Below, piece by piece: positions 4,142 through 48,576 of a DNA stretch of 64,000 nucleotides (position 1 is the first letter of the stretch; every line of letters starts with the position of its first letter). This DNA comes from Pleurocapsa sp. FMAR1 (GTDB taxonomy: Bacteria > Cyanobacteriota > Cyanobacteriia > Cyanobacteriales > Xenococcaceae), in assembly GCF_963665995.1 (NCBI RefSeq), contig NZ_OY762512.1, positions 2,232,001-2,296,000 of the forward strand. Reading direction: 5' to 3'. The notes under the pieces are model-generated. The model was not told the origin of the DNA. It saw only the letters and a list, made by a program, of their open reading frames with translations, and did no database searches. Made by a program: the position numbers and the translations under genes.

Positions 4142-5956
4142 CTAGTTTTTTAAGAATACGTAAAATTCATTATGGGGTCTTGTTACATCACGCGATGAAT
4201 GTAATTGTAATGGTATATATTGTGCGCACCGTAGTTCATTCATAACATTAGCAAAAGATTCATAGGTGAAAACATTACAATGTACATCAACATAAACATT
4301 TTCGTTCAACCTTTTTTGAGCTTCATCCATAGCATCTTTAGCGTTACGAAAGCGATTTTTTTCTAATAAATGCTGATAATTATTATTCCAGACATCATCA
4401 GCTTTAATTGGTCTATGATAATAAAGCTGATCGCAGATTTGATGAATATTGGGAGCTTTCAAATTATGCAGATTATTAAGAATCAACTCTTCTGAAGATG
4501 TTAATGATCGCAGCTTATCAAAAGTATATTCCTTATGAGGTATTGTTAAAAACAAAAATCCATCTTTTTTCAAAATTAAAGATATATCTTGTAACCACTT
4601 AATAATGTTGGGAATATGTTCAATAACGTGATTGGCTATTACTAAATCAAACTTTTTATCAATGCAGTCGCTATAACGTTCACCTTTGATAACATAGTCT
4701 ACATCTACAGCATTTTTGGCTCGTTGAGGCTTAATATTAGAATGATTTTTAGCTAATTCCTCTTTGGAAAAATAATCACAATAATATATATTTGCATCAC
4801 TTTTAGTAAATGTAGGCTTATCAAACGCTCCTATCTCAAGTACTTCTGTTTCTAATAAATTATTGATGACTTTTTTAATGTATTGACGTCTTTGTTGAAT
4901 TTTCTCTAGTTTTGTAGATGTAAGTGAAGTCTTATTAGCGGTTATGGCCTTCATAGTCAAAACTTCTTTGGCAATTTTAATTTTTTTCTTTAATGAAGCT
5001 TTGTCGGGACGACCATGACCTTCAACACCGTCATAACTATCGAAAACAGACTGATTTCCCTGATTTTTTCCAGAAAATAATTCTTGATATAGCCGATAAA
5101 AATCGAAATTTCTATTATGCAAATTATCATTAATATTGGCTAATAAATATATATTTGGTACGCTATTTATATTTTTTTTAAATCTATGTCGACAGCAAAC
5201 GCGATCGCCAAATTTGTTAAGCAGCGTTTGGCGATCATCTGTTCCAAGCAAAGTTTTCATAACCTTGGTTAGACCATACGTATGTATCTGACTATTTATT
5301 GATAAAACTTGAACTTTCTGATTAAAATAAGTGCTAGTTAATAAAGCACCCATAGCACCAGCAGATGAACCAAACAATAGTGTATTCTGCAAACTTACGT
5401 GTACATTGCTACAAATACTTTCAATAACTATACTAATTAATTCAGTATAGTTTAATTCTTGAGTTCCTACATAGAAACTAGACATTAATCCAGGAAGGAA
5501 ATGACCTGGATCGCTAATACATATTGTGGAGATATTATCTGTAAAAGCAGACATAATACCCTCGAAAATCACCTTTTCTTTATCTAAACTATAATCTTTT
5601 TGAGACAAAGATATATCCATTTTTGCAGCGCTTTGAAAGTAAACATTCAATTCGCGACAATCATCTTGTAAGTAACAAAACAAGTAAAAAAAAGGGATAT
5701 TGTCTATTGTCAATTCTGAAGGAAAGTAGATTTTATATACTACTGGCTCACCAATAAATATTTCAGATGAATTTATCCCTTTTTCTGATTTATTAATGGT
5801 AATTTCTCTAAACAAATTGGGTATGTAGCCAAATACTTGCTTATTAACTTTACTTGAGTTTTCCTTCAGGGAAGAAGTTAACAACTGAGCTATTTTTGAA
5901 TATTCTAGTTTACTTTGATATGTTTTTAATTTTTCAACTAGGCTTTCTTGAATCAT
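4142..5956 (-). CDS. Alpha/beta-hydrolase-like domain fused to SAM methyltransferase
   Basis: Two domains are joined in 604 residues. The first ~340 residues include LLFGSSAGAMGAL, a nucleophile-elbow motif (G-x-S-x-G) of alpha/beta hydrolases or esterases, and a late GHGRPD histidine that could be the catalytic base. From about residue 375 there is a class I methyltransferase: EVLEIGAFDKPTF (SAM-binding loop), then FDLVIANHVIEHIPN and a GFLFLTIPHKEYTFD strand. The arrangement suggests acylation or deacylation plus methylation of a surface glycan, in keeping with the glycosyltransferase genes that follow divergently. The substrate cannot be told from sequence. One HIP1 site lies inside, so the gene does not look freshly acquired. 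Confidence 0.65.
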   Translation of the reverse strand: MIQESLVEKLKTYQSKLEYSKIAQLLTSSLKENSSKVNKQVFGYIPNLFREITINKSEKGINSSEIFIGEPVVYKIYFPSELTIDNIPFFYLFCYLQDDCRELNVYFQSAAKMDISLSQKDYSLDKEKVIFEGIMSAFTDNISTICISDPGHFLPGLMSSFYVGTQELNYTELISIVIESICSNVHVSLQNTLLFGSSAGAMGALLTSTYFNQKVQVLSINSQIHTYGLTKVMKTLLGTDDRQTLLNKFGDRVCCRHRFKKNINSVPNIYLLANINDNLHNRNFDFYRLYQELFSGKNQGNQSVFDSYDGVEGHGRPDKASLKKKIKIAKEVLTMKAITANKTSLTSTKLEKIQQRRQYIKKVINNLLETEVLEIGAFDKPTFTKSDANIYYCDYFSKEELAKNHSNIKPQRAKNAVDVDYVIKGERYSDCIDKKFDLVIANHVIEHIPNIIKWLQDISLILKKDGFLFLTIPHKEYTFDKLRSLTSSEELILNNLHNLKAPNIHQICDQLYYHRPIKADDVWNNNYQHLLEKNRFRNAKDAMDEAQKRLNENVYVDVHCNVFTYESFANVMNELRCAQYIPLQLHSSRDVTRPHNEFYVFLKN

Positions 5957-6954: not shown

Positions 6955-9900
6955 TTAAAGTAGATCGAAAGCAGCCATCATGGATTTATGGGAATGCAAT
7001 TACTTTACTCAATCAGTTGGGAAAAGTAAATGAAGCATTAGAAATTGGTAAAATAGCCTTAAAAGTTGATGCTAATAGTGACGAAATATTGCGTGCTTTA
7101 GGTAGCGTCTATAAAAGTAATGGAAATTCCCTGAACAGTATAAAGTTTTATCAGCAGGCAATTGAAATAAATCATAGCCAACCAATCTGGGTGTATGAAC
7201 ATTTAATCGAGAGCCTGATTCAACAAAACGATTTGTCACAGGCACTTAAATATGGAACGCTGGGTACTAAAATCAATCCTGAATCCTGTTGGTTAAAATA
7301 TCATCTAGGGAATATTTTTTTCGAGCAAGAAAGATGGTCAAAAGCCTGTGAACTATATATCCAAATATTAGAGGTTGAGCCAGATTTTCTTAATGTAGCC
7401 GATAAACTAAATGAAGCTACAAGTTATCAAGCAAACCAAGTATCAAACGTAGATGCTCAAGTACCAAATATCACGCCAGAGAAAAATCCTCAATCTAATT
7501 TAGAAGAATTAGAAACCACTGTTGTCAACTCAGGTAGTAGTTTTGTAGCTGAAATTACTCAGGTGAGCTTAGGTGGATTTATTCAAGGTTGGGCAATAGA
7601 TAACTTTAATCCTGAAGAAACTTTAGAAATTAGAGTGGTTGTGGATAGGCAACCGATTGGCAAAGTAAAAGCCGAGCAAAAAGTTGTGGTAACTACCAAG
7701 CAAAATCTTAGAGGAATACCCAAAGAATTTAAACTATTAATTCCTGCCACTTTATTAGACGATCGAGAGCATCAATTTGAATTAATTTACCTTAAAGATA
7801 AGCAATCAACAACTACTCAGATTAAAGTGCCTCGCCGCGGTGTAGGACATATTACTAAATGGCAAAATAACTGTATATCGGGATGGGCTTTAGCTGATGG
7901 TCATACAAAGTCTTCAGCAAACTTAGATGTATATATAGACAATATTTTTTATACAGAAATCCAGGCAAATAAATCTCAAAAGGACTTACTCAAAAATGGC
8001 TTGGGTAATGGCAAAAATGGATTTGAAATTCTTTTACCGCTTCTGCAAGAAAAAAAGTCTTATCAAATAGGTGTATTTTTCCAAGGAACTAAAACCCATT
8101 TACAAAAAAGTCCTATTTATCTAGAATACAAAAACTCTAGCACTCCTGCTCAATCTCTATTTTTAGCAGGTATTGATAGTATAAGTACAGGGGGGATACT
8201 AAACGCTTGGGCAATTGATAGCGTTAATCCTGATAGCCAACTCAAAATTAAAATTTATGCTGATGGTAATCCCATCGGCGTAGTTAAAGCTACTGAAGAC
8301 TATCCATTGGTTGGGGGACTTTGCACTGCAACACCTAAAAAGCTGCAAATACAGCTACCGTATACGTTACTAGATGATCGAGAGCATCAGTTTGAATTAT
8401 TTCTTCTAGACAAAAAGCAAAATGAAGCGCAGTCAATCAAATCAAGAATTATAGTTCCCCGTCAAAACATTGGTCGCATTGATGGCTGGAATGAGAATTG
8501 CGTAACTGGTTGGGCAATTCCAGAAGGTCATGTTGGTGCTGCGATGTTAGATGTTTATATTGATGGAACTTTCTATCAAGAAATCAAGGCAAATACATCA
8601 AGAAAAGATTTACTTAAATATAATCTGGGTAATGGCAATAATGGATTTGAATTTGCTTTACCATTGCCGCCAGAAAACAAAGAAACTTATAAGATAGATA
8701 TATTTTTTAAGGGAACGCCACAAAAGCTGCAAAGAAGCCCGATAAGTATTAGCTTTGCACCTGAATCTGAATCTTTGTACAAACAGCAGAAAGGTCGATT
8801 TTCCCTTCTTTATCGAGGTAAAAACAATCTTCATCGTGACTTAACAATTGTTATTCCCGTATTCAATGCCTATGAAGAATTGTGTTTATGCCTTAAGTCG
8901 GTATTTAAATACACTTCTTTAAAAGCCAAGCTGGTAATTATAAATGACTGTAGTACAGATCAAAGGATCCCTGAACTTTTAGTTTGGGCAGGCAGCCATC
9001 CTAATGTTACCGTCATGTCTAACGAAGAAAACATGGGCTACACCAGAACTATTAATCGGGGCATAAATTTTGCCGAAAATGATGATATTGTTCTGCTGAA
9101 TAGCGATACTGTGGTTGGTCCGCACTGGCTACAAAATTTAAGTTCGGCGGTTTATCATCAACCAGATATTGCCACTGCCACCGCTATTTCTGATAACTCT
9201 GGAGCATTTTCTGTTCCTGATGTAGGTCGTGCCAACGACTTTCCTCTTTGGTTAGCCAAAGAAGAGATGGTTCGCGCTATTAGTCAAAATAGTAAGATTG
9301 TTTATCCTGAAACACCGACTGGAAGCGGATTTTGTATTTATATTCGACGGGAGGTTTTTCGTGAAATTGGCATCTTTGATGAAATTAATTTTCCCAGAGG
9401 CTATGGGGAAGAAAATGACTTCTGTATGCGTGCAGTGCGCGCTGGCTGGAGAAATATAGTCGACGATCGCACCTTAGTATATCATGTGCGATCGGCAAGC
9501 TTTCGCGATGAAAAAACTAATCTATACGATACGGGGCGTAACGTAGTGGACGAACGTTATCCTGACTATCGAGGACGAGTGGGCGTATTTGTTCATTCTC
9601 CTCAGATGAACACCATGCGTTATGGAGTGAGAAAGCTAATTGAGGGAAAATGGTCAACTCCCGTGCATCAGCCTCGTCAAAGAGTTCTATATGTTATTTC
9701 TACTCAGACTGGGGGAACACCTCAAACCAATCAAGATTTAATGGATGGCTTGAGCGATCGCTATCATCCTTTAGTTTTGCGCTGTAGTGCTACAGAAATC
9801 TTTCTTTACGATACCAGGAATGAAGAAGATGTTGCCTGTGAAACTGTGCAACTACAGTCGCCCATCACCCTAACGGCACATCAATCTATTGAATACGAAG

Positions 9901-47771: not shown

Positions 47772-47812
47772 AAGTCGGGGGATGCCTTGTAAGATGAAGC
47801 ATCCCCCGACTT
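47772..47812 (+). terminator. Strong terminator-like hairpin
   Basis: A 14-bp perfect stem (AAGTCGGGGGATGC with GCATCCCCCGACTT) and a 13-nt loop lie 24 bp after the stop of the MBL gene. No long T-run follows, so it may act on both strands between convergent genes. Confidence 0.7.
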
Positions 47813-47916: not shown

Positions 47917-48576
47917 TTAATTATTTTCTTCTCGGTTGATTAAATCTAATTTAGCAATTTCTTGTGCCGCATTTTGTAACTGAAAAATATTGGTAGCTTG
48001 CTTTAGTAGATAGATTGGAGTCCAAATTATTAGAGCTATTTGGACTCCAGTAAAGTTCCAATCATTGATCGTCAAACGACCACCAATAAGATAGAAATTA
48101 AGATAAAGCAAAATATAAAATAATTCATTTCCTAAGATCAACACATCCATGAAAGGCTTGTTGCCATAGTAAAGCTTCATTAGTCCATTGGTTGCCCATT
48201 CGGTCGAGTCTTTATGACTAGCTTTGCCTAGCATTCCTGTAGCGTAGATCAAATAATAATGGCTGCTAACGTCAAGAGCGATCGCACCAATAAAAACTAA
48301 TAAATAATTAGGATATAATTGCGCCAAAATCAAACACAAACCCGCCGTAGCCGTGCGATCTGCCACCATATCAAGGGCTGCACCAAAATTACTGCTTTGA
48401 TTATATGCCCTGGCAGCACGACCATCAAATTCATCTAAAATAAAGGCGATCGCATAAAAGCTAATACACAGTTGCCAGTTATCGAGTGTATGACAAATAA
48501 AGCTAATCAAGTAAAATATAAATCTACTATAGCCAATAATGTTCGGTACAAATAAAAATACTTTGTTAACTGACAT
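47917..48576 (-). CDS. Eukaryotic-type phosphatidylinositol synthase homologue (CDP-alcohol phosphatidyltransferase)
   Basis: The complete CDP-alcohol phosphatidyltransferase motif is present: Asp48, Asp51-Gly52, Ala55-Arg56, Gly65, Asp69 and Asp73 in 219 residues. Beyond this motif the protein resembles human/plant PI synthase along its length: VFLFVPNIIGYSRFIFYLIS at the start, ALDVSSHYYLIYATGMLG, LMKLYYGNKP, LGNELFYILLYLNFY, and a C-terminal NAAQEIAKLD. The expected reaction joins CDP-diacylglycerol and myo-inositol in the membrane. I chose the ATG at 48576 because the PI synthase match starts there. PI is not a usual cyanobacterial lipid. Homology to the eukaryotic enzyme is judged from memory. 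Confidence 0.85.
   Translation of the reverse strand: MSVNKVFLFVPNIIGYSRFIFYLISFICHTLDNWQLCISFYAIAFILDEFDGRAARAYNQSSNFGAALDMVADRTATAGLCLILAQLYPNYLLVFIGAIALDVSSHYYLIYATGMLGKASHKDSTEWATNGLMKLYYGNKPFMDVLILGNELFYILLYLNFYLIGGRLTINDWNFTGVQIALIIWTPIYLLKQATNIFQLQNAAQEIAKLDLINREENN

Follow-up and report, generated by a model that had tools for sequence, protein, structure and literature searches.

A probable eukaryotic-type phosphatidylinositol synthase accompanied by bacterial-type INO1 in Pleurocapsa-like cyanobacteria

Introduction

Inositol lipids in bacteria are described from Actinobacteria, Spirochaetes and Bacteroidetes (PMC9246714), and the characterised bacterial synthesis of phosphatidylinositol (PI) is reported to proceed in two steps through phosphatidylinositol phosphate (PIP) (PMC4634129, PMC9246714). 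One-step synthesis is attributed to eukaryotes (PMC4634129). In Bacteroidetes, the BT_1522/1523/1525/1526 cluster pairs a CDP-alcohol phosphotransferase with MIPS for inositol lipids by a route that passes via PIP and a phosphatase, and the same source gives a second, putative route without PIP-DAG (PMC9246714). The catalytic motif of this superfamily is reported to provide the CDP and metal site and the catalytic base, and PIP synthases (PIPS) to carry two absolutely conserved acceptor-pocket arginines, R191 and the RxxR-motif residue R153; these are the proposed ligands of the phosphate group of inositol phosphate and are described as not conserved in eukaryotic PI synthases (PMC4634129).

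Here we analyse a gene in a 64-kb stretch of DNA (64,000 nucleotides, hereafter the window) from the cyanobacterium Pleurocapsa sp. FMAR1. We conclude with considerable confidence that it encodes a membrane PI synthase (PIS) of the eukaryotic kind, acting in a chimeric pathway with a bacterial-type inositol-3-phosphate synthase (INO1). The pairing of a CDP-alcohol phosphotransferase with an inositol phosphate-forming enzyme recalls the BT cluster, whereas the window enzyme is predicted to be one-step and eukaryotic in type. A 2015 PIS tree contains just two prokaryotic sequences (PMC4424895), which may be the same proteins as the cyanobacterial PIS. In titles and abstract openings of the open-licence literature we found neither PI synthase nor PI reported for these cyanobacteria.

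The gene and its protein

The initial annotation, which gave no strand, had described a 219-residue CDP-alcohol phosphatidyltransferase with all motif residues. The open reading frame lies on the minus strand of the window, with the following features:

47917..48576, minus strand: predicted eukaryotic-type PIS gene (CDP-diacylglycerol:inositol 3-phosphatidyltransferase), 219 aa, ATG start, no internal stop
48523..48546, minus strand: PNIIGYSR, residues 11-18, from alignment with the eukaryotic reference PIS
48358..48435, minus strand: catalytic motif D48xxD51G52xxA55R56 ... G65xxxD69xxxD73, from Pfam and the orthologue alignment
48211..48276, minus strand: LDVSSHYYLIYATGMLGKASHK, residues 101-122, from alignment with the eukaryotic reference PIS
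48115..48129, minus strand: NELFY, residues 150-154, within a predicted long helix (140-162), from alignment and the AlphaFold model
47774..47810, minus strand: perfect 12-bp stem with a 13-base loop 3' of the stop codon, a possible transcription terminator, from reading of the sequence

The description proved accurate: the CDP-alcohol phosphotransferase motif is complete, PF01066 is the sole Pfam family in the protein (58.4 bits against a cut-off of 22, best stretch residues 9-102), and the four segments that had been quoted all occur in the 219-aa translation. A longer, GTG-started frame reaches 48615 and is not needed, since the alignment of relatives begins at the ATG. A consensus terminator scan with a loop limit of 8 reported no terminator 3' of PIS, where the hairpin loop is 13. 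The gene has a G+C content of 35.5% (38.1% for the 64-kb window) and contains two GCGATCGC sites, which we take to be the cyanobacterial HIP1 repeat. PIS genes are under purifying selection, with dN/dS of 0.06-0.16 in six pairs and saturation in a seventh. On the strength of the G+C content and the two GCGATCGC sites, the gene seems long resident.

Comparison with eukaryotic PI synthases

Our eukaryotic references were the human, yeast and Arabidopsis PIS only, used as sequences without a database source; we take their lengths to be 213, 220 and 227 residues, a range within which the 219 of the window protein falls. The window PIS is 39.4-42.4% identical end to end to these sequences, much as they are among themselves (35.1-41.0%), and 27.4% identical to the PgsA of its own genome, which is encoded by a separate gene. 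Global alignment scores lie 24-29 s.d. above 200 shuffles for the three eukaryotic PIS and 7 s.d. above for PgsA, so the likeness to eukaryotic PIS is not due to chance. It also extends beyond the catalytic motif, as the initial annotation had maintained: among columns identical in the three reference sequences the window PIS agrees in 44 of 51, and outside residues 48-74 in 30 of 35.

Shared elements include PNxxGYxR, of which P11, N12, G15, Y16 and R18 are identical in all three eukaryotic reference and all 13 cyanobacterial PIS; the catalytic motif; LDxxSH...SHK, with L101, D102, S105, H106, G117, S120, H121 and K122 common to the window PIS and the three references; YY; E..Y (E151 and Y154, in all three); K192; D211; and a second half without a conserved arginine pair. 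The window enzyme differs from its eukaryotic counterparts (CDIPT/PIS1, EC 2.7.8.11) at seven eukaryote-invariant positions (S44A, A49E, T72A, S76A, R140K, C147I and V197I), in its cyanobacterial host, which has no endoplasmic reticulum, and in its supply by a bacterial-type INO1.

Phylogenetic analysis placed the window PIS with the eukaryotic PIS (support 100/97), apart from the ten other CDP-alcohol phosphotransferases included, and in a second tree containing a divergent cyanobacterial PIS (from genome G473) the cyanobacterial and eukaryotic PIS grouped at 96/94; in these trees long branches were flagged and the eukaryotes were represented by the three reference sequences only. Both the whole-length identity and the position apart from the other CDP-alcohol phosphotransferases agree with the eukaryotic type first proposed for the enzyme.

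AlphaFold predictions reached a pLDDT of 61.8 with 13 close sequences, and 82.2 (pTM 0.77) when the G473 protein was added. A Foldseek search with the latter model returned CDP-alcohol phosphotransferases in all of rows 1-24, including PgsA 7drj, DIPPS 4mnd, PSS 7pow, PIPS 6wmv and 5d92, AF2299 and human CEPT1, with E values of 0.02 or worse, probabilities of 0.57-1.00 and TM-scores to the query of 0.30-0.55. The best rows among viral structures were giant-virus CDP-alcohol phosphotransferases (E 0.035 or worse). No eukaryotic PI synthase was present among the listed PDB sequence matches or Foldseek matches of PIS.

Bacterial families and the acceptor

Ten NCBIfam models match the window PIS, all far under their cut-offs, the best at 36.5 bits against 180. 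The pgsA model TIGR00560 scores 30.8 bits (cut-off 109.1), the pssA model TIGR00473 29.9 bits (cut-off 107) and the PIPSynth model 24.3 bits (cut-off 170). A divergent enzyme of PgsA or PssA type (phosphatidylglycerophosphate or phosphatidylserine synthase) would have the same superfamily and fold, and PgsA 7drj is the nearest solved fold; given the weak pgsA and pssA scores, the 27.4% identity to a PgsA that the genome has separately, the placement of the enzyme elsewhere in the tree and its companionship with INO1, we consider this extremely improbable.

Another reading is that the enzyme is a bacterial PIPS of the two-step route that merely resembles eukaryotic PIS. INO1, itself bacterial in type, yields inositol phosphate, which is the acceptor of that route; the PIPSynth model does match weakly, and K140 is invariant in the 13 cyanobacterial PIS. 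Nevertheless 24.3 bits is far under the cut-off of 170, and the two arginines reported as absolutely conserved in PIP synthases (PMC4634129) lack an equivalent. No arginine after R74 is conserved among the 13 cyanobacterial orthologues (the window PIS itself has R167, present in 1 of 13, and the tail residue R215, present in 6 of 13), and I155 and Y158 stand opposite the RxxR arginines of PIPS, in a part where the alignment is weak. The eukaryotic reference PIS have an arginine at the position of K140; because this residue is basic and invariant, the missing arginines argue better against PIPS membership than for the identity of the acceptor. We regard a PIPS as very unlikely. Actinobacterial PgsA1/PIPS (RsPIPS 5D92) resembles the window enzyme in superfamily, catalytic motif and predicted fold and differs from it in the acceptor arginines, which the window PIS lacks, and in family, the PIPS score of the window PIS being far below cut-off. 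Returning to a PI synthase of the eukaryotic kind, we infer from the lack of a conserved arginine in the second half of the protein that its sequence favours free inositol as acceptor, with PI as the direct product.

The RARAE segment of PIPS was also considered as the acceptor arginine site and was dropped because R153 is placed in the RxxR motif (PMC4634129); the second arginine of RARAE aligns with K140 (arginine in the eukaryotic reference enzymes).

A PIPS-type protein that does keep RxxR is encoded by a cyanobacterium of another family in the same order (G034, L024:1333-1917). It scores 153 bits with the archaetidylinositol-phosphate synthase (AIPS) model and 136 bits with the PIPS model, under both cut-offs (180 and 170), and 88 bits to the solved RsPIPS, with the two RxxR motifs aligned. 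G034 is thus like the window case in its order, in its candidate inositol-lipid enzyme and in having INO1 (L070:7478-8683, just 26% identical to that of the window genome), and differs in that its enzyme belongs to the PIPS/AIPS family, with RxxR where the window PIS has I155 and Y158. Judging from these sequences, the order appears to have two routes to inositol lipids. The initial annotation had expected an inositol lipid to be new for cyanobacteria; with a bacterial-route candidate in G034 as well, the novelty is the eukaryotic-type enzyme.

Distribution and conservation

PIS is found in 12 of the 13 genomes of the window genus, the exception (G001) being 81% complete, and in 13 of the 27 genomes of the family, the 13th (G025) belonging to a sister genus; orthologues in the 12 further genomes show 67-83% identity. 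Across the order, 14 of 388 sampled genomes have matches, the divergent protein of G473, from another family, having been found by profile search. In the phylum sample, 58 of 386 genomes gave matches at E ≤ 1e-6, of which two were full-length, both from the window genus; the other 56, all from family f47, gave partial matches of 29-43%. The CDP-alcohol phosphotransferase of f47 genomes (1.6-2.3 Mb; L031-L053) is a distinct one and shows the motif VLDIxGDR. A single-protein search of genome contigs recovered eight loci, all cyanobacterial by title (Pleurocapsa, Waterburya, Hyellaceae, Myxosarcina, Xenococcaceae and Pleurocapsales). A plasmid search gave no match for PIS, and among viral contigs 0 of 53 stretches were confirmed.

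The eukaryote-like sequence, and the fact that most relatives are draft genomes, could suggest eukaryotic contamination of the assemblies. We give this practically no credence, and for the window it is excluded: the genome consists of a single 5.43 Mb contig with 99.88% completeness, the neighbours of PIS are bacterial and vary across the 13 genomes, the orthologues are in frame and under purifying selection, and the two GCGATCGC sites lie inside the gene. Contamination of G025 from the window genus was likewise unsupported, with PIS at 64-68% and INO1 at 79-81% identity to the 11 genus genomes compared. A neighbouring gene on the G025 contig has its best matches at 70-72% in four window-genus genomes and at 70-78% in eleven other genomes of the family, with none in a twelfth.

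INO1 and gene neighbourhoods

The initial annotation had proposed a search for inositol-1-phosphate synthase, and INO1 (PF01658) was found in every PIS genome among 60 relatives. It occurs in 16 of these, the 13 with PIS plus G034, G057 and G059, or 13/13 genomes with PIS versus 3/47 without (Fisher p 1e-10, a value that ignores relatedness, 12 of the 13 PIS genomes being from one genus). The INO1 of the window genome (G000:C1:2555660-2556751) is located about 275 kb from PIS, and the two genes are far apart or on separate contigs in 12 of the 13 PIS genomes. The two genes form a same-strand tandem in G025, where INO1 (L009:3546-4694) comes first and 69 bases separate it from PIS (4764-5429). 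In G473, INO1 (L103:7785-8975), 70% identical to that of the window genome, adjoins PIS on the opposite strand in convergent orientation.

By its sequence matches, INO1 is bacterial in type. The window genome's protein scores 458 bits with the bacterial model TIGR03450, below the 638-bit cut-off, and its best solved relative is 1GR0, presumably actinobacterial, at 408 bits over the whole length; the only chain of eukaryotic length among the listed matches, 9f2k (513 aa), scores 31.7 bits. With INO1 bacterial in type, the predicted pathway is a chimera. The window genome also has four genes of the inositol monophosphatase family (PF00459), which is weak evidence since the family is present in all 14 control genomes too; INO1 and these genes are the predicted source of myo-inositol. 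In G059, a genome in which no full-length PIS was found, INO1 is open over residues 158-362 only (L071:8215-8748, 77% identical to that of the window genome), and this fragment is possibly a remnant of the pathway.

Immediate neighbours of the window PIS encode an MBL-fold/ferredoxin protein, an ABC permease, a Gfo/Idh/MocA oxidoreductase and a DnaJ-TPR protein. None turned up near PIS in any of the remaining 12 genomes (ORFs of at least 100 aa in the stretches examined), and we rejected the neighbourhood as a functional clue because these neighbours are not kept. Elsewhere PIS lies near an S9 peptidase (6 of 13 genomes), prolyl-tRNA synthetase (3 of 13) and, in one genome, Raf1, which look like housekeeping genes; one member of each neighbour cluster was scanned. 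INO1 is divergent to a fatty acyl-AMP ligase (FAAL) gene in 12 of the 13 PIS genomes (L068:10658-14465 and equivalents), and in the 13th (G009) the contig starts inside INO1; FAAL homologues are common, occurring in 52 of 60 relatives at E ≤ 1e-100. Near INO1 and FAAL, 10 of the 13 genomes have a CarS-like gene (CDP-archaeol synthase family). A GT4 glycosyltransferase is near INO1 in 5 of 13; it was considered as a PI glycosyltransferase and dropped, with homologues (E ≤ 1e-80) in 24 of 28 genomes with and without PIS. Near the INO1-PIS pair of G025 lies a diacylglycerol-kinase-family lipid kinase gene (L009:7552-8898), whose 448-residue product has an N-terminal extension of ~125 residues. 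In G002, a gene of the Pfam eukaryotic-type glutathione synthase family (L087:9691-11073) lies 63 bases 3' of PIS, and it adjoins PIS also in G003 and G006, the closest relatives of G002; it occurs in 4 of 60 relatives, including G001 (G001:C415:19754-21058), and in 0 of 14 control genomes.

Evolutionary history

The reading frame of the G473 PIS (locus L103:7785-10095 with INO1) is interrupted within a poly-T stretch close to the 5' end. The protein shows 39.5% identity with human PIS, 41.3% with the yeast enzyme and 32.4% with that of Arabidopsis (reference sequences as above), and 33.5-38.0% with the 13 other cyanobacterial PIS. With outgroups included it falls with the three eukaryotes at 99/99, and its nearest sequence is human PIS, with weak support (83/39, or 92/85 without outgroups); a single clade of all cyanobacterial PIS was not rejected (AU p 0.116). 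G002, G003 and G006 group in both the INO1 tree (99/99) and the PIS tree (100/97), trees that are poorly resolved and bear on co-descent in part only.

The likeliest explanation, inferred from the three reference sequences, is that PIS reached cyanobacteria by transfer from a eukaryote, and the narrow, patchy distribution favours transfer into cyanobacteria. Two separate acquisitions are possible. As a tentative extension, there may have been at least two, in the Pleurocapsa group and the G473 lineage, each paired with the same kind of bacterial INO1 and giving a membrane with PI made in one step.

The opposite direction, in which the eukaryotic gene descends from a prokaryotic PI synthase lineage and the cyanobacterial PIS are relicts or were transferred from other bacteria, we consider less likely. 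It would accommodate the main cyanobacterial group lying beside, not inside, the three eukaryotic sequences, and the two divergent cyanobacterial lineages with one cyanobacterial clade at AU p 0.116. It sits poorly with full-length PIS in 2 of 386 phylum genomes and matches in 14 of 388 order genomes, a survey that covered distant forms within Cyanobacteria (order and phylum samples), and with a G473 PIS whose identity to the yeast and human enzymes exceeds that to the main cyanobacterial group and which groups with eukaryotes at 99/99. It also has to be set against the report that PI is made by all eukaryotes (PMC4424895).

Remnants of additional copies were observed in two genomes. The window genome holds a second PIS copy (G000:C1:5226021-5226275; L069:8022-8282) that spans residues 131-217 and is interrupted by a stop codon. 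Its identity is 63% with the window copy and 72% with the PIS of G008, and its 5' part was not found in the surrounding 17 kb. The start of the copy falls within the right-hand member of a pair of 27-bp inverted repeats (L069:6594-6620 and 8007-8033) enclosing about 1.4 kb (L069:6594-8033), from which we conclude that a mobile element probably cut it. In G005, a fragment matching PIS residues 3-43 at 51% (L014:520-648) is found about 850 bases upstream of PIS, a tandem-copy remnant.

Discussion

In the pathway that we propose, a bacterial-type INO1 and an enzyme of the inositol monophosphatase family would make inositol from glucose 6-phosphate, and PIS would join CDP-diacylglycerol to free myo-inositol, releasing CMP and giving PI in one step. 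Bacterial inositol synthesis would thereby be coupled to a PI synthase whose donor was most likely a eukaryote, in a single genus of a Pleurocapsa-like cyanobacterial family plus two outlying genomes. As far as the genomes allow us to say, the cells probably make a lipid unexpected in cyanobacteria.

In eukaryotes, PI is the lipid on which membrane identity and signalling are built. If our interpretation is correct, these organisms would represent a natural case of membrane remodelling through gene transfer in a photosynthetic bacterium. Structural studies would also gain access to a eukaryotic-type PI synthase from a bacterium, and the organisms could serve to test where eukaryotic PI synthesis originated.
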